A DNA stretch of 64,000 nt from Nitrospira sp. (GTDB lineage: Bacteria > Nitrospirota > Nitrospiria > Nitrospirales > Nitrospiraceae). Positions 30,044 through 38,487 of this stretch are shown piece after piece (position 1 is the stretch's first letter; every line of letters starts with the position of its first letter). The DNA lies in contig JARFXR010000002.1 in assembly GCA_029194535.1 (NCBI GenBank), forward strand, positions 496,001 through 560,000. Direction: 5' to 3'. Both the position numbers and the translations under genes were made by a program. Under the pieces are notes generated by a model, which had not been told where the DNA came from, made no database searches, and was given only the letters and a program-made list of their open reading frames with translations.

Positions 30044-30550
30044 CTACGCCAGCCTGGCGTTCCTCTGAGTCGCTCTACTTTTTCTTCCAGTGCGAGGACG
30101 ACCCCTTTCTTGCGACCGACGGCCTGCGCGGATGGAAGCCGGCAAAAACACTGCTGGTGACACCCCGAATCTCGCAGCAAGTCTGGCTATTTGTCGGACA
30201 TTCAAGTCACGCTTGCCTGAGAGGACTTCCGAGACGACGCCCTGACTGCCGATTTCTGGAAGATTCGACTGCGACAAGCCATGCTCGTCCATGAGGGTGC
30301 GGAGGACCGCAGGACCGGAGGTGTCCTGGACCAGTACATGGACCTCTTCGTAGGCTGCGATGGCAAGCGCCAGAGTTTCACCCAGATCGGCGAGAGGGTG
30401 TCGCTCTTGTTCGCCGATTTCGTCCACGATCTCGTCGAGAGCGGCGACCGCTCGATGATATTCCGTCTCTGTTCGCAATGGCCCGATGGGGATGTGCAGA
30501 CGGAGGCGGCGGTAGTCGGCATTCGCTTCACGGATATATTTGGCAAGCAT
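30044..30550 (-). CDS. higA: HigA-family antitoxin (XRE helix-turn-helix)
   Basis: A 168-residue antitoxin. Its N-terminal half (LGETLALAIAAYEEVHVLV) neutralises the toxin; its C-terminal half is a helix-turn-helix (LRTLMDEHGLSQSNLPEIG, VVSEVLSGKRDLNVRQIARL). It ends in an unusually basic Arg/Gly/Lys tail (RAGRRSQERGRPRTGRKSR), longer than typical. The ATG at 30550 follows GGAGG. It starts 3 bp after the toxin gene, in the toxin-first order typical of higBA. By family knowledge it represses its own promoter. The cassette is bracketed by 25-bp direct repeats. Confidence 0.88.
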   Translation of the reverse strand: MLAKYIREANADYRRLRLHIPIGPLRTETEYHRAVAALDEIVDEIGEQERHPLADLGETLALAIAAYEEVHVLVQDTSGPAVLRTLMDEHGLSQSNLPEIGSQGVVSEVLSGKRDLNVRQIARLAARFGVSPAVFLPASIRAGRRSQERGRPRTGRKSRATQRNARLA

Positions 30551-30553
30551 CGG

Positions 30554-30841
30554 TTAGCTCCTCCAGCGACCTCGATCATACTCTGCATGCGTCAGCACAT
30601 GCCGGATGTAGACTTTCTTCCGGTTATAGTGAATCGCTGCGATAAGCCGGAACTTGTTGCCGCCGACATTAAAAACGGTGAACAGATCAATCTGGTCCGC
30701 TGATGGAAACGTGGTCCGCAGGGCAGCGAAGGAAGCGTAGTCGGTCTTGCGGATAATCGCGTACCAATGTTGCAATGGCGCGCGGGCTTCCGGATGGATG
30801 CTCCAAAAGTCCACCAGTCGTCGACGCGTGATAATGTGCAC
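30554..30841 (-). CDS. higB: HigB-family mRNA interferase toxin
   Basis: A 95-residue RelE-superfamily toxin starting at GTG 30841 (MHIITRRRLVDFWSIHPEAR). It carries FNVGGNKFRLIAAIHYNRKKVYIRHVLTHAEYDRGRW, the conserved C-terminal block of HigB toxins (COG4680 type). HigB cleaves mRNA on the ribosome. It precedes higA in a two-gene operon, and the conserved block appears intact, so it is probably active. The promoter should lie in 30842-30960, before the right-hand direct repeat. Confidence 0.9.
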   Translation of the reverse strand: MHIITRRRLVDFWSIHPEARAPLQHWYAIIRKTDYASFAALRTTFPSADQIDLFTVFNVGGNKFRLIAAIHYNRKKVYIRHVLTHAEYDRGRWRS

Positions 30842-31477: not shown

Positions 31478-31562
31478 GATCGTCTCCTCGTTCCTGATAG
31501 AACCATCTGGAGCAGATGATCTCTAGGAGTAGGCGGAAAAGCAAAGCCCTTTTCAGGCAGAT

Positions 31563-32012
31563 TCATCGCAGAGCACGTCTGAGTTTCTCAAAGTCCTGTA
31601 ACGCAATACGGAGCACGCGCATTATCTCCACATATTTTGCGTCGCCGATATTGATGTGGTGTAAGCGTCGCGTGACACCATCCTTAACAGTGATTCGACC
31701 GTAGTAATCTGTTTGAGTAACCGGCGAGCGCGATCCCTTAGTGAGCCGCCGATGCTTCACTGTGTTTGCAAGATTACCCACAACACCCATGTATTTGGAG
31801 TTGTTGATGCACGATTCGATCTCATGAGACTTTTCAGGATATTGCTCTTTCAGCCAATCTTTCTCATTCCACAGAAATATGAGAAAGCATTTGATCTGTC
31901 GATTGAGCTCTCGCTCGGACGTTCGGTAGTGAATCCAATTGGCAATGCGACTCCACAGCGCCAGAATTTCAAACCAGTTATCATTGGCGTTGGTTGAATC
32001 AACGATAGGCAT
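31563..32012 (-). CDS. Conserved-looking cytoplasmic protein of unknown function
   Basis: A 149-residue protein (start MPIVDSTNANDNWFEILALW) with GGAG before the ATG. It is rich in aromatic and charged residues, predicted mainly helical, and contains NLANTVKHRRLTKGSRSP around 80-97. The helical character and the conserved-looking NxVKHR segment recall HEPN-type proteins found in defence islands, but I cannot place it in a family. Its lower GC content and its position among toxin-antitoxin genes suggest acquired DNA. Confidence 0.5.
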   Translation of the reverse strand: MPIVDSTNANDNWFEILALWSRIANWIHYRTSERELNRQIKCFLIFLWNEKDWLKEQYPEKSHEIESCINNSKYMGVVGNLANTVKHRRLTKGSRSPVTQTDYYGRITVKDGVTRRLHHINIGDAKYVEIMRVLRIALQDFEKLRRALR

Positions 32013-32769
32013 ATCTCCACTTCCTTAACCAGTAGTCGCGCTTGACTTGCAATGTCGCAAGATACTCTCCAAGAACTCTTCTGGCAACTCTAGAAAGCCA
32101 ATAGGTATTCGCTGCTCAGCTCAGGATCGACAGGATGTTCAAACCGACTCCCCTAAGGCTGCAGCCTATAAGTAGCTCTCTCCAAGCTTGCTAGTTCCCC
32201 CTCCTACCTAAAGGTGCGCCGTGCTGGCCGCTGAGTCTGGCTATCGAACACTTCCATGCTTGCTGGCAGCGGGAGGCTGGTTGAAACTTCACTACGCGCG
32301 CTGGCTGAGGTAGTCCTCTGCAGGTGGCGTCGACCATCACTCGCCCGCAGCGGGGTCCCTACACCGGGCGGGGTAAGAGGGCGCACGGCGCGATGAATAA
32401 AGAGCGCACGCCTGTGCGCGCAGCCCGGATGGTGAGGCGGCCAAACCGAGCGATGATCTACGACAGGACCCGCTCCGAAACATAAGACGCATGCGGGGCT
32501 ATCCCCGCATGGCCTGCTGGTCTCCCCTTCCCCGCATGAACCGATCCCGTCCATCTCGCCCATAACCCATTAACTTCATTCGACTGTTCTTCACTTTTAT
32601 CTCGCTGACTGACCGGCACCTCCGTTGCTCAACCGGCTTGGCATCGACACGCATGCAACAGACGGCTGGAAAGGAGGTGATGCGACCTGAGTGAGAGCTC
32701 AATTGTGAGTTTTGAATGATGAGTTGTGAATTTGTCCATCTTATCCAAATGACAAGGGAGGGTTGAGCC
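32013..32769. other. 757-bp stretch without a supported gene
   Basis: The stretch includes a perfect 8-bp hairpin ATGCGGGG-ctat-CCCCGCAT (32491-32510) without a T-run, and GC-rich, repeat-like sequence at 32200-32460. Open frames here lack recognisable motifs. The promoter of the rightward OmpA-type gene must lie near 32650-32755. Confidence 0.4.
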
Positions 32770-33603
32770 ATGCAGAAAAGTCCGTCACCAGTCACATCCG
32801 GCCCCATCGCGCCGGCCATTTCCGGACCTAAAAAGGATCACGAGGTACTCCTCTTCTCGGGGCTCATCGTGAGCCTGGCTGTCATCATCGGCGGGTTCTG
32901 GTACTACAGTTCGATCGAACAGACGACCGCCACCGTTCCCGATCGCTTGACCGAAACCGAGGTCAGCGAGGCGTTGAAGAATACGACGCAACCGGCGGCC
33001 ATGCCTGTCTCGCTTCCTGTGACCCAGACTCAGGGATCTCTACAGACACCCTCCGTCCCGGACATCATCCACCGAGACCTCTTCTTCGAGGTGGGCCGTA
33101 AGGGATTGACCGACGAAGCCAGGTCGATCATCCAGCAACAGGCGGTCCTGCTCAAGAACGACGGCGACCTCGGCGTCCTCGTGCAGGGCTACACCGACCG
33201 GCAGGGATCGGCCGGCTACAACCTGGCGCTCGGCATGAAGCGGGCCGAATCGGTGAAAACTGAATTGATGAGCGCCGGCGTAGCGGAGCATCAAATCAAG
33301 ACGGTGAGCCTGGGCAAAGAAGGCGTGCTCTGCATCGACAACAGCGATGTCTGCCGGCAGATGAACCGCCGCGTCCATCTGGAGATCCGGACGATCGGAC
33401 AGGAACATATGGTCCCGCCGATCGTCACGACCACGCCCGACTCCACCGAGGCGACGCAAGCGTCGGCAGATCAGAACCAATCATCCGACGAGCAAGGGTC
33501 CCTGGGCGAGATGCTCATTCCTTCCGTCGACGCCGCACAACCGGCCGATCCAAACACCACGTCCATCGAATCGGCTTCCGGCGAACCGGCTTCGGGAAGC
33601 TGA
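32770..33603 (+). CDS. OmpA-family membrane-anchored protein
   Basis: A 277-residue protein with one membrane segment (VLLFSGLIVSLAVIIGGFWYY, about 26-48), a Thr/Pro-rich linker, and an OmpA-like peptidoglycan-binding domain at about 115-215. The domain has RDLFFEVGRKGLTDEARSII, VLVQGYTDRQGSAGYNLALG and NRRVHLEI; the Asp and Arg that bind diaminopimelate are in place. The C-terminal tail is acidic and Ser-rich. GGAGG precedes the ATG at 32770. It should tether the inner membrane to the cell wall. It is followed by the VIT/VWA and sortase genes on the same strand, separated from the first by a perfect hairpin. Confidence 0.87.
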   Translation: MQKSPSPVTSGPIAPAISGPKKDHEVLLFSGLIVSLAVIIGGFWYYSSIEQTTATVPDRLTETEVSEALKNTTQPAAMPVSLPVTQTQGSLQTPSVPDIIHRDLFFEVGRKGLTDEARSIIQQQAVLLKNDGDLGVLVQGYTDRQGSAGYNLALGMKRAESVKTELMSAGVAEHQIKTVSLGKEGVLCIDNSDVCRQMNRRVHLEIRTIGQEHMVPPIVTTTPDSTEATQASADQNQSSDEQGSLGEMLIPSVDAAQPADPNTTSIESASGEPASGS

Positions 33604-33621
33604 CGACTCTGCCGGATGCCG

Positions 33622-33653
33622 TTCCTGCATGAGGCCTGCGCCTCATGCAGGAA
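33622..33653. repeat. Perfect 14-bp hairpin
   Basis: TTCCTGCATGAGGC (33622-33635) and its exact complement (33640-33653) enclose the loop CTGC. No T-run follows. It could act as a partial terminator, an mRNA stabiliser or a protein site between the OmpA-type and VIT/VWA genes. Confidence 0.75.
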
Positions 33654-33695
33654 CACCTGCACTGCGCTGTTCACATCCGAAGACACGAGGACCGC

Positions 33696-35834
33696 ATGAC
33701 GCACAACGCGCTCGCACGCACATCAACCTTCAGATCCACGACACGGCTATTGGTGACATGCCTGCTGACGACATTGGTGCTGCTGTTCGGAGGCCTCCCG
33801 ACACCTCTCGCCTGCGGAGAAACACTAAGCTCTCCAGACGCTGTTCCAAACCTCATCGGTCTGAAGGACGTCACCCAAGGCAGCCTGCTCTTCAAGACGG
33901 CTCAATCGGGCCGTTACCTCCCCGCGCCCATTCTTCACACCGACGTCCGGATCACCGTCACCGGCACGATCGTCCGCGCAAGGCTCAAGCAGGAGTTCGT
34001 CAATCCAAGTCGAGGCAAAGACGACTGGGCCGAGGGTATCTATGTCTTCCCGTTGCCGGAGACCGCCGCAGTGGACCACATGCGCATGACGGTCGGAGAG
34101 CGCACGATCGAGGGACAGATCAAGGAACGAATGGAAGCCAAGAAGGTCTACGAACAGTCCAAACGGGAAGGCCGGCGGGCGAGCCTGGTCGAACAGGAAC
34201 GACCGAACATCTTCACGACCTCCGTGGCGAACATCGCTCCTGGCGATCGGATCACGGTCGAGATCGAATATCAGGAGACGGTCCGGTACGATCAGGGCAC
34301 CTACTCGATCCGCTTCCCGATGGTCGTCGGACCACGATATATCCCCGGCACCCCGGTGGTCATTGAGGATCAGTCGCCTGGAACCGGTTGGTCGCTCGAT
34401 ACGGATGGAGTGACGGATGCCTCTCGCATCACGCCGCCGGTGCAGCATCCGGTCCGCGGCCCGATCAATCCCGTCACCCTATCCATCGATTTGGCCCCCG
34501 GATTTCCTCCGGCTCAGATCGATTCTCCTTCCCACCCGATCCTCGTCGTGGCAGAGCCGGACGGGCGACGCCAGATCAGCTTGCGGACAGAACGAGTCCC
34601 AGCTGATCGTGATTTTGTGCTGAGGTGGAAAGCCGCCATAGACAGCACTCCGATCGCGACGGCCTACACCCAACATGAGGGCGAGGCATCGTACGCCCTC
34701 CTCATGCTCACGCCGCCGGTCGGATCGGACCAGTCGCAGTCCATTCAACCTCGCCAACCTCGCGAGGCAATTTTCGTGATCGATACGTCCGGTTCCATGG
34801 CCGGTACGTCCATCGACCAGGCCAAGGCCGCACTGCTGACGGCCTTGAGCCGACTGACGTCTCAGGACCGCTTCAACGTCATCCAATTCAACAGCGTCAC
34901 CCGCGTCCTGTTCTCGGAGGCCCAGGCCGTCACCGTGGCAACGGTCCGCAAAGCCGTTCACTATGTCGAACGGCTCCATGCCGACGGAGGCACGGAGATT
35001 CTGCCGGCGCTGAAGACCGCCCTCAAGGGCACCGCGCCCGCCACCCATGTGCGTCAGGTCATCTTCCTCACCGACGGCCAAGTCGGCAATGAAGACGAAC
35101 TCTTCGGCGTCATTCAGGAACAGCTCGGTACAAGCCGGCTGTTCACCATCGGTATCGGCTCGGCACCGAACAGCCACTTCATGCGGAAGGCTGCGGAATT
35201 CGGACGAGGCACCTTTACCTATGTCGGTAGTACGAACGACGTGAAGGCACAGATGGACAACATGCTCAGAAAGCTGGAACGGCCGGTGCTGACGGACGTC
35301 AGGGTGGATGGGCTGGACCCAGCGGATGAACTGTTCCCGCCGCGCATCCCCGATCTCTACGAAGGCGAACCGGTTGTCCTGGCGCTAAAGAGCAAGCGCT
35401 TGCCGGCTCTCTTGACCGTTCGAGGCTCGACCGGAACGAGTCAGTGGACCGCCTCGCTTACGCTGACAGACGCCCCCGCGCGCGAAGGACTCTCCATCCA
35501 TTGGGCACGCCGCAAGATCGACTCCATCATGGACCGACAGCGGCAGGGCCTGGAAGATCCGGCTATCCGGCAAGCCGCCGTCGACGTGGCGCTGGCCCAC
35601 CACCTGGTCAGCAAGTACACGAGCTTGGTTGCGGTGGACCACGAGCCGGTTCGTCCGACGGACAAGACGCTCGCCACTCATCCCATGAAGGTCAACCTGC
35701 CTGACGGACAAGACTATCAGGCAATCTTCGGATTGCCGCGAACCGCGACGCCCGGCCAGATGCAGATCCTCATCGGAATTGCATTGTTCGCACTGGCATG
35801 GTTCATAGGACGTTTGTGGCGACAGGCCGGCTGA
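33696..35834 (+). CDS. VIT/VWA sortase-target surface protein
   Basis: A 712-residue protein starting at ATG 33696, with a signal peptide (LLVTCLLTTLVLLFGGLPTP). A VIT domain (about 45-170: IVRARLKQEFVNPSRGKDDW, YVFPLPETAAVDHMRMTVG) is followed by a VWA domain with an intact metal site (DTSGSMAGTS) and TDGQVGNEDELFGVI. The C-terminus is a sorting signal: LPRTATPG, a hydrophobic span (ILIGIALFALAWFIG) and a basic end (RLWRQAG). This is the design of the marine-proteobacterial sortase target family. The adjacent, overlapping gene is its sortase. It should be displayed on the cell envelope and bind ligands in a metal-dependent way. Confidence 0.92.
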   Translation: MTHNALARTSTFRSTTRLLVTCLLTTLVLLFGGLPTPLACGETLSSPDAVPNLIGLKDVTQGSLLFKTAQSGRYLPAPILHTDVRITVTGTIVRARLKQEFVNPSRGKDDWAEGIYVFPLPETAAVDHMRMTVGERTIEGQIKERMEAKKVYEQSKREGRRASLVEQERPNIFTTSVANIAPGDRITVEIEYQETVRYDQGTYSIRFPMVVGPRYIPGTPVVIEDQSPGTGWSLDTDGVTDASRITPPVQHPVRGPINPVTLSIDLAPGFPPAQIDSPSHPILVVAEPDGRRQISLRTERVPADRDFVLRWKAAIDSTPIATAYTQHEGEASYALLMLTPPVGSDQSQSIQPRQPREAIFVIDTSGSMAGTSIDQAKAALLTALSRLTSQDRFNVIQFNSVTRVLFSEAQAVTVATVRKAVHYVERLHADGGTEILPALKTALKGTAPATHVRQVIFLTDGQVGNEDELFGVIQEQLGTSRLFTIGIGSAPNSHFMRKAAEFGRGTFTYVGSTNDVKAQMDNMLRKLERPVLTDVRVDGLDPADELFPPRIPDLYEGEPVVLALKSKRLPALLTVRGSTGTSQWTASLTLTDAPAREGLSIHWARRKIDSIMDRQRQGLEDPAIRQAAVDVALAHHLVSKYTSLVAVDHEPVRPTDKTLATHPMKVNLPDGQDYQAIFGLPRTATPGQMQILIGIALFALAWFIGRLWRQAG

Positions 35835-36445
35835 GTCGGCATCACCAGCTTGGTGGATGGACTGCGGTCTTGATCGGCTGTTTGGTCGTGGCCGGATCGT
35901 GGCAGGTGGGACAAGGAATCTGGGTCTATGCGAAGGCCGGGCTTGCGCAGCATCTGCTGCAGCGAGCCTGGTCTCGCAGCCTGGCCGGAAAGGAAGCGGT
36001 GCGGCCCTGGCCCTGGGCCGATACCTGGCCGGTCGCGCGGCTCACCGTTCCATCTGAACAGCGAGACCTGATCGTATTGCACGGCGCCTACGGGCGCACC
36101 CTCGCGTTCGGACCAGGCTACGTGGAATCCAGTGCGTCTCCCGGTTCAGCAGGCACCACCATTCTGACGGGACATCGGGATACCCACTTTGCATTCTTGA
36201 AACAACTCCGACCGGGCGAGCTGATCACGATTCACACGATTGACGGTCACAGCCGCTCCTATCGTGTGACGCAACGGCGGATCGCCGACAGTCGAACGGA
36301 CGGCATTGCGCTCACGACCGATCGCTCGACTCTGGTCTTGGTGACCTGCTATCCGTTCGATACGCCGATACCGGGAGGGCCGTTGCGATGGGTTGTCGTG
36401 GCCGAAGCAGAGGAGGCAGAGTCGCAACGGGAGGGGCAAGTCTGA
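35816..36445 (+). CDS. Class GN sortase
   Basis: A 209-residue transpeptidase starting at GTG 35816, which has AGGA suitably upstream; an ATG at 35798 without such a site is the alternative. A signal/anchor segment (WTAVLIGCLVVAGSWQ) is followed by the sortase barrel with all catalytic residues: His120 in TGHRDTHF, Cys178 in LVTCYPF and Arg191 in GGPLRW. It overlaps the stop of the VIT/VWA gene by 19 bp, so the two are translationally coupled. It should cut the LPRTATP signal of that protein. Sortases of this class occur in Gram-negative bacteria with one dedicated target. Confidence 0.92.
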   Translation: MATGRLSRHHQLGGWTAVLIGCLVVAGSWQVGQGIWVYAKAGLAQHLLQRAWSRSLAGKEAVRPWPWADTWPVARLTVPSEQRDLIVLHGAYGRTLAFGPGYVESSASPGSAGTTILTGHRDTHFAFLKQLRPGELITIHTIDGHSRSYRVTQRRIADSRTDGIALTTDRSTLVLVTCYPFDTPIPGGPLRWVVVAEAEEAESQREGQV

Positions 36446-36449
36446 TGGG

Positions 36450-36941
36450 CTACCGTTTGGCTTTCGCCTGCTGCTTCCATTCCCATGGCGGGACCGGCTT
36501 CGGGTCGGACCACAAACCTTTGCCACCGGCCCGCGCCAGCTCTTCGAGCAGTTCGAGGCGCTGGTCGGCGGAGGCCGATCGTTTCCACCACGCCATCCCT
36601 TCTTTGAGCAGCTCGCGTCCGAGACTTCGGCCGTCCTGCAGCAGAACCTCGGCGGACAAGCGCCCTTGTTTGTCCGTCGCGAGCCCACGAATGACGACAT
36701 CGCGGTTTCCAACATAGGCGGTGGTGACTCGCTTGGCCTGCTTGCCGTAGGGCTGCGTCAGTTCAGGGCAATCGATGTCCTTGATCGAGATCGTGTTCGT
36801 TCGTCCCCCCTGTCGGATGGTCAATCGGTCGCCTTCCACAACGCTGATGACGCGCGCCACGACATCGGCCTGAGAAGGAACGGGCCACCCAGCCGCCAAG
36901 GCCGTTACCATCACGACGACTGAACAGGTTCTCCGCTTCAT
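36450..36941 (-). CDS. Exported thermonuclease-like protein (SNase fold)
   Basis: A 163-residue protein with a signal peptide (VVVMVTALAAGWPVPSQA) and a staphylococcal-nuclease fold: VISVVEGDRLTI, IKDIDCPEL, QPYGKQAKR, DKQGRLSAEVLLQDG and LLKEGMAWW. Canonical enzymes have DGD and RIDAPE; here EGD and KDIDCPE are seen, so the first catalytic Asp is Glu and the first catalytic Arg is replaced by Lys. Activity is therefore uncertain. It converges on the sortase gene with a 4-bp gap. Confidence 0.82.
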   Translation of the reverse strand: MKRRTCSVVVMVTALAAGWPVPSQADVVARVISVVEGDRLTIRQGGRTNTISIKDIDCPELTQPYGKQAKRVTTAYVGNRDVVIRGLATDKQGRLSAEVLLQDGRSLGRELLKEGMAWWKRSASADQRLELLEELARAGGKGLWSDPKPVPPWEWKQQAKAKR

Positions 36942-37092
36942 GCTCGTGACCTATGCTATCCTCTCCGAATAATCCGGCCAATTCTTTCCGGCATTTCGGT
37001 CGGTGGAAAGGCCGCTCTGCCATCAAAATGCAGATGAAAAGCCGCCTGTCGATGCCGAAGCAGTTGCCCCTTCATGAGCCCTTCCTCGATCC

Positions 37093-38487
37093 TCAATGAG
37101 ACAGTCGAACTCGTCGAAGAACAGCCCACCCGATCAAGCCAGCCGAGGCCGATCCCAACAAGATACCGATCTTGGCTGAAGTGGCCGCCTCAGCCTGTCC
37201 GAATGCCAAATCGGTAATGAAGAGCGACATGGTAAACCCGATACCGGCGAGAAATCCGACGCCGATCAGATGCACCCATGTGACGCTCTCCGGCATTCTT
37301 GCCGTTCCCGAGAGGATCACGGCCCCTGCTCCGAGTAACACTCCGGCTGGTTTGCCGATCAGCAAACCGATGAGCACACCGAATGCGACCGGATTGACCA
37401 GCGTCGCGGCAAACCCGGCATCTAATGTGACGCCTGCATTGGCCAGTGCAAAGATGGGCATCACGACGACGGTGACCCAGGGATGCAGCGCCTGCTCCAG
37501 ACGCTGCAGTGGCGTCGCCACATTTTTGACTGCCGTCTCCAACCGATGCGCCACTTCATGCTGCTCTTGATTCGCCAGAGGCGAACTGTCGGGGACGGTC
37601 ACTTGTTCAAAGCGCCGCAAGAGCGCCAGACCGCGCGCCAGGAATTCGCCTCGGCTGAGCTTCGGGCGAGCCGGGATGGTCATCGCGGCTAAGACGCCGG
37701 CGATCGTGGCGTGTACCCCCGACAGGAGAAAGGCCAGCCACAGCCCCCCGATACCCAAGAGGCAATAGACCAGCACGTGCCGGATCCCGAGAACATTGGC
37801 GCCGATGAGAAGGATCAGAAAGAAAGCCCCGACACCGAGGCTGAGCCAAGAAATCGTCGTGGTATAGAATATGGCGATGACCACGACGGCCATCAGGTCG
37901 TCGCCGATAGCCAAGGCTGCCAAGAACACCTTGAGTGACACCGGCACACGGGCGCCCAGTAACCCGAGAACTCCTAACGCAAATGCGATGTCTGTCGCCA
38001 TGGGGATGCCCCATCCAGGCGCTCCCGGCGCACCGGCGTTGAAGGCCAAATACAAGGTGGCCGGCACGATCGTGCCCCCCACGGCGGCCCCGAGCGGAAA
38101 CGCCGCCTGCCGAATGGAGGCCAATTCACCCACCAGTATTTCCCTCTTGATCTCAAGTCCGATCACGAAAAAAAACATCGCCATCAGGCCGTCATTGATC
38201 CATTCCAACGCTGTTTCTCTCAGCACATGCTGTCCCACGACGAGACTAATCGGGGTTTGCCAGATTTCGTGGTACGTGTTGGCCCAAGGAGAATTAGCCC
38301 AGATCAATGCCACCGCGGTGGCCGCCAACAGGAGGATTCCTCCCGAGGACTCCGCATGCACAAATTCTTGGAACGGTCCGACGACGTGCTGAATCGGGGC
38401 AGGCCGCTGGAGGCTCGGTTTCTCCGGACCTGCTCGGTTCTCGTCGGATTTCTCCGAGAGGTGCTCCTTGGTGCGTGTATGTTTCAT
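37093..38487 (-). CDS. nhaA: Na+/H+ antiporter NhaA
   Basis: A 464-residue polytopic protein starting at ATG 38487 (MKHTRTKEHLSEKSDENRAG). After a hydrophilic lead it shows the NhaA core: GGILLLAATAVALIWANSPW, MAMFFFVIGLEIKREILVGE, and the ion-binding pair in PMATDIAFALGVLGLLG and ALAIGDDLMAVVVIAIFYT (the two adjacent aspartates correspond to Asp163/164 of the Escherichia coli protein). It exports sodium in exchange for protons at the inner membrane. The N-terminal extension of about 60 residues is longer than in E. coli. It is monocistronic by spacing. Confidence 0.95.
   Translation of the reverse strand: MKHTRTKEHLSEKSDENRAGPEKPSLQRPAPIQHVVGPFQEFVHAESSGGILLLAATAVALIWANSPWANTYHEIWQTPISLVVGQHVLRETALEWINDGLMAMFFFVIGLEIKREILVGELASIRQAAFPLGAAVGGTIVPATLYLAFNAGAPGAPGWGIPMATDIAFALGVLGLLGARVPVSLKVFLAALAIGDDLMAVVVIAIFYTTTISWLSLGVGAFFLILLIGANVLGIRHVLVYCLLGIGGLWLAFLLSGVHATIAGVLAAMTIPARPKLSRGEFLARGLALLRRFEQVTVPDSSPLANQEQHEVAHRLETAVKNVATPLQRLEQALHPWVTVVVMPIFALANAGVTLDAGFAATLVNPVAFGVLIGLLIGKPAGVLLGAGAVILSGTARMPESVTWVHLIGVGFLAGIGFTMSLFITDLAFGQAEAATSAKIGILLGSASAGLIGWAVLRRVRLSH

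Follow-up and report, generated by a model that had tools for sequence, protein, structure and literature searches.

Class GN sortases are best known from Proteobacteria, where a dedicated sortase system comprises the sortase (TIGR03784), its target (TIGR03788), a kinase (TIGR03785), a regulator (TIGR03787) and PdsO (TIGR03789). The target–sortase pair was already known in 2011, according to passages of PMC3237569. Excerpts of a 2023 paper describe GN sortases from Proteobacteria, state that they are limited to halotolerant proteobacteria and call the role of sortases in Gram-negative bacteria unknown (PMC10581121). We analyzed such a pair in a 64,000-nucleotide stretch of DNA (“the window”) from Nitrospira sp., in the phylum Nitrospirota (assembly GCA_029194535.1, 3.98 Mb and 99.88% complete; contig JARFXR010000002.1, positions 496,001 to 560,000). 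There, genes for an OmpA-domain protein, a target with VIT and VWA domains and a class GN sortase follow one another on the + strand.

A sequence-only reading of the window had located the same three genes and interpreted them as a surface-display module, with the OmpA-type protein as a possible wall anchor. Much of this reading stood: the target and sortase form a dedicated pair, the sorting signal is complete and the OmpA gene is conserved beside them. The wall-anchor role of the OmpA protein found no support. Judging from sequence comparisons, we consider it moderately probable that the locus encodes a Nitrospirota sortase system of class GN that is dedicated to a single substrate, in which the target would be linked to the wall through meso-diaminopimelate (meso-DAP) and the OmpA protein would be separate.

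A target and its dedicated sortase

The sortase scores 212.6 bits against TIGR03784 (curated cut-off 158.25), which places it in class GN, and the target scores 749.8 bits against TIGR03788 (cut-off 551.65), which makes it a member of that family with the C-terminal sorting signal included. The catalytic residues His126, Cys184 and Arg197 are invariant in all 19 aligned sortases, the window’s among them. The target has a VIT domain (PF08487, 4.9e-37) and a VWA domain (PF13768, 1.5e-21), and the metal-site residues Asp380, Ser382 and Ser384 of the latter are invariant in 18 of 18 aligned targets. As the sequence-only reading had it, the target ends with a full sorting signal, consisting of LPRTATPG, a hydrophobic helix and the basic end R-L-W-R-Q-A-G, and its gene overlaps that of its own sortase.

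The genome yielded one Pfam sortase and one TIGR03788 target. Searched as a DNA pattern, LPxTAT or FPxTAT matched 25 times, versus 44 times for the reversed control, and is therefore not in general excess. Only the target’s match has both a strongly hydrophobic stretch after it and a suitably placed stop; its tail averages 2.34 over 16 residues, versus 1.3 for the next-highest among the other matches that stop within 60 codons. For the LPxTAT/FPxTAT motif, sortase and substrate are one-to-one. No second substrate occurs among the 25 matches; the pattern did not cover tails built on the cores TGT, TAS or GAT.

It is very unlikely that the pair is a decaying relic that has no function now in the window genome. 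Decaying copies do occur in relatives, one of them in the same genus (L056), and sites without the pair are common. However, both frames in the window run uninterrupted over their full length, exceed the family cut-offs and retain the invariant residues, and L040, the nearest relative, carries the pair intact, with 79% identity in the target and 78% in the sortase.

Like the proteobacterial system, the window has a target and a sortase above the cut-offs, in adjacent genes and with a single substrate. By contrast, its OmpA-domain protein is not PdsO by score and sits upstream of the target, and Nitrospirota loci lack the two-component regulator and kinase beside the pair. As yardsticks for the latter two, we used the proteins of locus L119, which score 386.4 bits against TIGR03787 (over the cut-off) and 521.7 bits against TIGR03785 (under the cut-off of 612.2). 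With a threshold of 200 bits and in the available flanks, neither the regulator nor the kinase was found in any of 81 Nitrospirota loci, TIGR03787 not having been run genome-wide. By the same yardsticks, 33 of 54 non-Nitrospirota loci have the regulator and 31 have the kinase. Frequencies for loci outside Nitrospirota are weighted towards close relatives, since the named loci come from the best 80 of 545 relatives. In the window genome, the best of 27 matches to the kinase model TIGR03785 has 102.9 bits, well under its cut-off, and covers only model positions 375–703.

Acceptor and sorting signal

Although it belongs to class GN, the window’s sortase is related to class D. The class D models are its next-best scorers after the GN model, and by sequence profile the solved structure closest to it is 2ln7, Bacillus anthracis SrtD (E 6.7e-23), with which it has an LPxTA-like signal in common. 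Unlike that enzyme, it misses the class D cut-offs (77.5 of 165 bits for NF033746 and 78.8 of 140 bits for NF058671) and so is not a class D member, it has a diderm host, and its single substrate is encoded next door. A Foldseek search with its AlphaFold model (mean predicted local distance difference test score, pLDDT, 82.1) retrieved solved sortases of several classes, mostly class C on top; 2ln7 ranks 28th, yet has the highest listed identity (29%).

We take B. anthracis SrtD to be the enzyme that has been published as SrtC. Passages of PMC3297441 report that SrtC, of class D, cuts LPNTA between T and A and uses m-Dpm as the acceptor. The window genome encodes DapF (221.9 bits, cut-off 114.65), which indicates only that meso-DAP can be made. 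Given the likeness to class D, the LPxTA-like signal, the SrtC precedent and DapF, we propose by analogy that the cut is LPRT/ATPG and, as our best guess, that meso-DAP is the acceptor.

In the proposed mechanism, the target would be exported by Sec, and its C-terminal helix would halt in the inner membrane. The membrane-tethered sortase, acting on the periplasmic face, would cut the signal and join the threonine carboxyl to an amine, likeliest the free side chain of meso-DAP in peptidoglycan or in a lipid precursor. The VIT/VWA protein would end up covalently linked to the wall and could act, within the periplasm or extending out of it, as a metal-dependent binding or scaffold protein. It may be displayed at the surface or may stay in the periplasm, since both locations are compatible with the sequence. 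The OmpA protein would be a separate inner-membrane-tethered peptidoglycan binder from the same locus, and perhaps from the same transcript.

The sorting signal varies within the family. We compared 112 distinct target tails, leaving out L163, where the frame ends in sortase sequence; the choice of the best window in each tail leans to the consensus. Positions 4 and 5 of the signal are TA in 92 tails, TG in 7, GA in 11 and GG in 2. The family signal is mostly [LF]PxTAT, with the core PxTAT, and not LPxTG. Glycine takes the place of the canonical scissile threonine (position 4) in 13 tails (L039, L042, L061, L094, L122, L110, L111, L129, L138, L143, L156, L164 and L166), mostly with Ala-Thr still after it. 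On the sortase tree, this glycine occurs in 10 of 67 rows and requires at least six changes. The residue before the catalytic Gly-His is Asn in 4 of the 13 glycine cases, all from one Nitrospirota lineage, which leaves too few independent pairs for a covariation test.

These glycines bear on a different reading of the enzyme, namely that it is a protease, or that it transfers the target to a lipid, a protein amine or water, and so releases or re-anchors it. The acceptors of GN sortases are predicted only, and we know of no such glycine changes at position 4 of wall-anchoring signals. Nevertheless, the sortase is near class D by sequence, whose B. anthracis member uses m-Dpm (passages of PMC3297441), and the catalytic His, Cys and Arg are all retained. 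We regard this reading as unlikely, though not negligible.

Several points weigh against transfer to meso-DAP by a single-substrate system with a separate OmpA protein. One is the loss of the scissile threonine in the 13 tails. The sortase also falls short of the class D cut-offs, and by fold mostly class C entries outrank SrtD. A diderm may use another acceptor, such as a protein lysine, a lipid or water, and further substrates with motif cores other than TAT are possible. Finally, the OmpA gene accompanies the pair in 46 of 47 loci (see below), which a mere neighbour would not need.

A wider proposal is possible but somewhat doubtful. It holds that a regulator-free, dispensable cassette in Nitrospirota fixes a VIT/VWA protein to meso-DAP peptidoglycan under the outer membrane, and that the GN-family signal has moved from PxT/AT to xxG/AT in parts of the family. 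If this is true, GN sortases have dispensed more than once with the threonine from which the sortase acyl-enzyme is formed. The locus offers a concrete candidate for the acceptor, and it weakens the OmpA protein as the obvious anchor.

The other end of the target also has a feature of note. A Cys codon at 33813–33815 lies close to the end of the signal sequence (PLAC-G), and the Cys is shared with 6 of 17 aligned relatives. In some relatives, this region (LLAC) resembles a lipobox and may be one; the protein would then be anchored at both ends.

The OmpA-domain protein

The OmpA-domain protein reaches no cut-off among the 25 families shown of 35. PdsO is ruled out by score (TIGR03789, 54.1 bits, cut-off 152.2). 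Against Pal (TIGR02802), the protein has 89 bits (cut-off 125.35), and it has no Cys in its N-terminal region. It has the OmpA-C domain in common with the Pal/OmpA-C peptidoglycan-binding proteins (PF00691; TIGR02802), but a membrane helix instead of their lipobox or barrel. Its AlphaFold model has a helix at residues 23–49 and an ordered domain at about 99–208, with disorder between and after them (mean pLDDT 64.9, the domain alone being well modelled). Because it has a membrane helix and no lipobox Cys, the protein reads as anchored in the inner membrane, with a periplasmic OmpA-C domain that would bind peptidoglycan. Asp143 and Arg158 are invariant in 19 of 19 aligned rows. They are 15 residues apart, as are Asp271 and Arg286 of Acinetobacter baumannii OmpA, which are reported in parts of PMC6650576 to bind diaminopimelate; the match is one of spacing and motif.

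We also considered the downstream OmpA genes of gammaproteobacterial loci as counterparts and rejected them. In the five loci scanned (L108, L109, L120, L142 and L162), these genes lie 4.4–6.6 kb downstream of the sortase and encode YiaD-type lipoproteins (259.5–272.7 bits, cut-off 175) that are below the PdsO cut-off.

We scanned 395 genomes drawn from the phylum with TIGR03784 and found matches in 56 (E 1e-3), of which 47 are over the curated cut-off. The stated range of GN sortases, halotolerant proteobacteria, is therefore too narrow. Of the loci fetched from the phylum, 47 match the target profile at more than 300 bits, and in 46 of these the OmpA gene is just upstream and on the same strand; the sole exception is L050, from a far family. 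The order OmpA–target–sortase also occurs in all 19 named Nitrospirota loci for which 1.5 kb or more of upstream DNA is available; the named and unnamed sets share some genomes. Since it recurs in both sets, the order is not due to chance, and the expectation of a conserved OmpA gene next to the pair was borne out. Outside Nitrospirota, only 1 of 47 named loci with enough upstream DNA has it, on a Rokubacteria contig (L111).

The OmpA gene can be followed independently by a profile of the 75 N-terminal residues of its product (leader and membrane helix). Of 175 genomes from the family, 94 have it, and the sortase, remnants included, was found in 69. Both are present in 60 genomes, the OmpA gene alone in 34 and the sortase alone in 9. 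Two of these nine have remnant loci (L054, with a partial OmpA gene, and L055, without). In three (L232, L234 and L235) the contig ends upstream of or within the target, and L236 has a decayed sortase and, at the contig start, an OmpA gene that matches the profile from position 49 onwards. L233 has an intact sortase, a target reduced to the last 32 profile positions and no OmpA gene. In the last two (G443 and G449), the matches lie 98 and 21 bases from the contig start. Locus L103 (SWDR01000003.1) is like L233, with an intact sortase beside the end piece of a target (LPKTGTNG, helix and tail). The target piece of these two loci is in a frame that opens with unrelated and masked sequence, as if the pair were freshly broken or the piece were an odd new substrate.

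These counts bear on whether the OmpA protein is a dedicated third part, either as the protein to which the sortase joins the target or as one that holds target and sortase at the wall. Such a role would fit the recurrent gene order, which extends to the Rokubacteria locus, as well as the short gap between the OmpA and target genes (41–92 bp) and the retained peptidoglycan-binding residues. On the other hand, no sortase was detected in 34 of the 94 genomes that carry the OmpA gene, where the site mostly occurs in a version free of the pair, and OmpA proteins encoded with and without the pair resemble each other in the leader, the domain and most of the motif at the C-terminal end. In addition, 46 of the 47 non-Nitrospirota loci have no OmpA gene there. 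We consider a third part quite unlikely. Together with the PdsO score and the apparent inner-membrane anchor, these observations speak against the proposed wall anchor. The OmpA protein is probably a neighbour with a job of its own, useful even without the pair, and not the anchor or acceptor.

History of the site and gene layout

The locus is a natural comparison, as pair-bearing, decaying and pair-free versions of one site exist. We fetched 20 of the 34 OmpA-only loci. Neither tblastn nor a six-frame profile search found a target or sortase in any of them, while all eight decaying loci run alongside were detected. A gene for a staphylococcal-nuclease-like protein (SNase) is convergent with the OmpA gene in 17 of the 20, with a gap of 118–888 bp in 16 and 2967 bp in L226 (between matched pieces); no SNase gene facing the OmpA gene was seen in L211, L212 or L219. 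The OmpA gene itself is broken in two of the 20 (L225 and L229). In the window and 7 of 46 fetched loci with OmpA and target genes, the SNase gene follows the pair, 2.8–3.6 kb from the OmpA gene; it was not found in the other 39 within the stretches examined. In decaying loci L049, L051, L052 and L054, an OmpA gene and a sortase remnant are followed by the SNase gene 885–1285 bp past the OmpA gene. The SNase gene marks the far edge of the site of gain or loss in the window’s part of the family. The sortase remnants of L049, L051, L054 and L055 have a new N-terminal sequence in common, with the junction near residue 78 of the window’s sortase, as if one old deletion had taken the target and the front of the sortase.

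A tree of 70 OmpA proteins (47 with the pair, 18 without and 5 with remnants), with six rows of a sister family as outgroup, requires nine changes in the presence of the pair, eight of them forced by well-supported branches. L048, scored as pair-bearing, is frameshifted. The pair is present in the outgroup and in the first inside branch (L047 and L070); the next fork, which includes the pair-less L212, is unresolved. Since the outgroup and first branch have the pair and remnants exist, the evidence favours an old presence and repeated loss. The pair may also have been re-gained by recombination, as in L082, which is intact among remnants.

The sortase tree includes 33 Nitrospirota rows (without L050). 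Of these rows, 28 form one clade (support 100/88), next to which are Rokubacteria (94/47) and one betaproteobacterial row (98/89 for the set). L037, L045, L046, L155, L047 and the distant L050 are outside the main clade. A recent transfer of the sortase from Proteobacteria is not favoured, because the 28 rows form one supported clade, with Rokubacteria next, although some rows lie elsewhere and no approximately unbiased (AU) test was run.

In the portions of the open-access literature covered, we found no mention of the pair being widespread in Nitrospirota, of its arrangement without a regulator, of its history next to an OmpA gene that persists, or of the TAT-centred signal. Literature on sortase with nitrospira or nitrospirota includes PMC8672522 and PMC10957091, whose excerpts do not concern this system, and we found no open-access paper joining sortase, inter-alpha-trypsin and Gram-negative.

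Table 1 Features of the locus, in positions of the window (aa, amino acids)
Feature	Position	Strand	Remarks	Basis
OmpA-domain protein, 277 aa	32770..33603	+	N-terminal leader conserved; membrane helix ~27–48; OmpA-C domain 105–199; tail disordered	PF00691 4.9e-16; AlphaFold
VIT/VWA sortase target, 729 aa as listed	33645..35834	+		TIGR03788; PF08487; PF13768
Sorting motif LPRTATPG	35733..35756	+	Proposed cut T/A, after 35744 (putative)	Sequence
Target C-terminal membrane helix and basic tail	35757..35831	+		Sequence; Kyte-Doolittle mean 2.34 over 16 residues
Class GN sortase, 215 aa as listed	35798..36445	+	N-terminal membrane helix	TIGR03784; PF04203; His126, Cys184, Arg197; AlphaFold
SNase gene	36450..36941	-	Faces the target/sortase pair; context, outside the sortase system	PF00565 8.2e-18

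The listed open reading frames of target and sortase (Table 1) have 37 bp in common. Judging from the sequence, the ATG at 33696, which follows GAGGA, is the more likely start of the target (712 aa), and the size of the gap after the OmpA gene depends on this choice. The GTG at 35816 may be the start of the sortase, in which case the overlap with the target would persist. A scan of 31500–37500 for terminators and promoters gave five terminator-like sites, versus 4.5 expected by chance, and none on the + strand between the OmpA and target genes; we did not use it as evidence. Further upstream, 30044–30841 holds a HigB-type toxin gene (PF09907, 102.6 bits, cut-off 27) and then a helix-turn-helix gene (21.9 bits, just below the cut-off of 23), which are likely a toxin–antitoxin pair.

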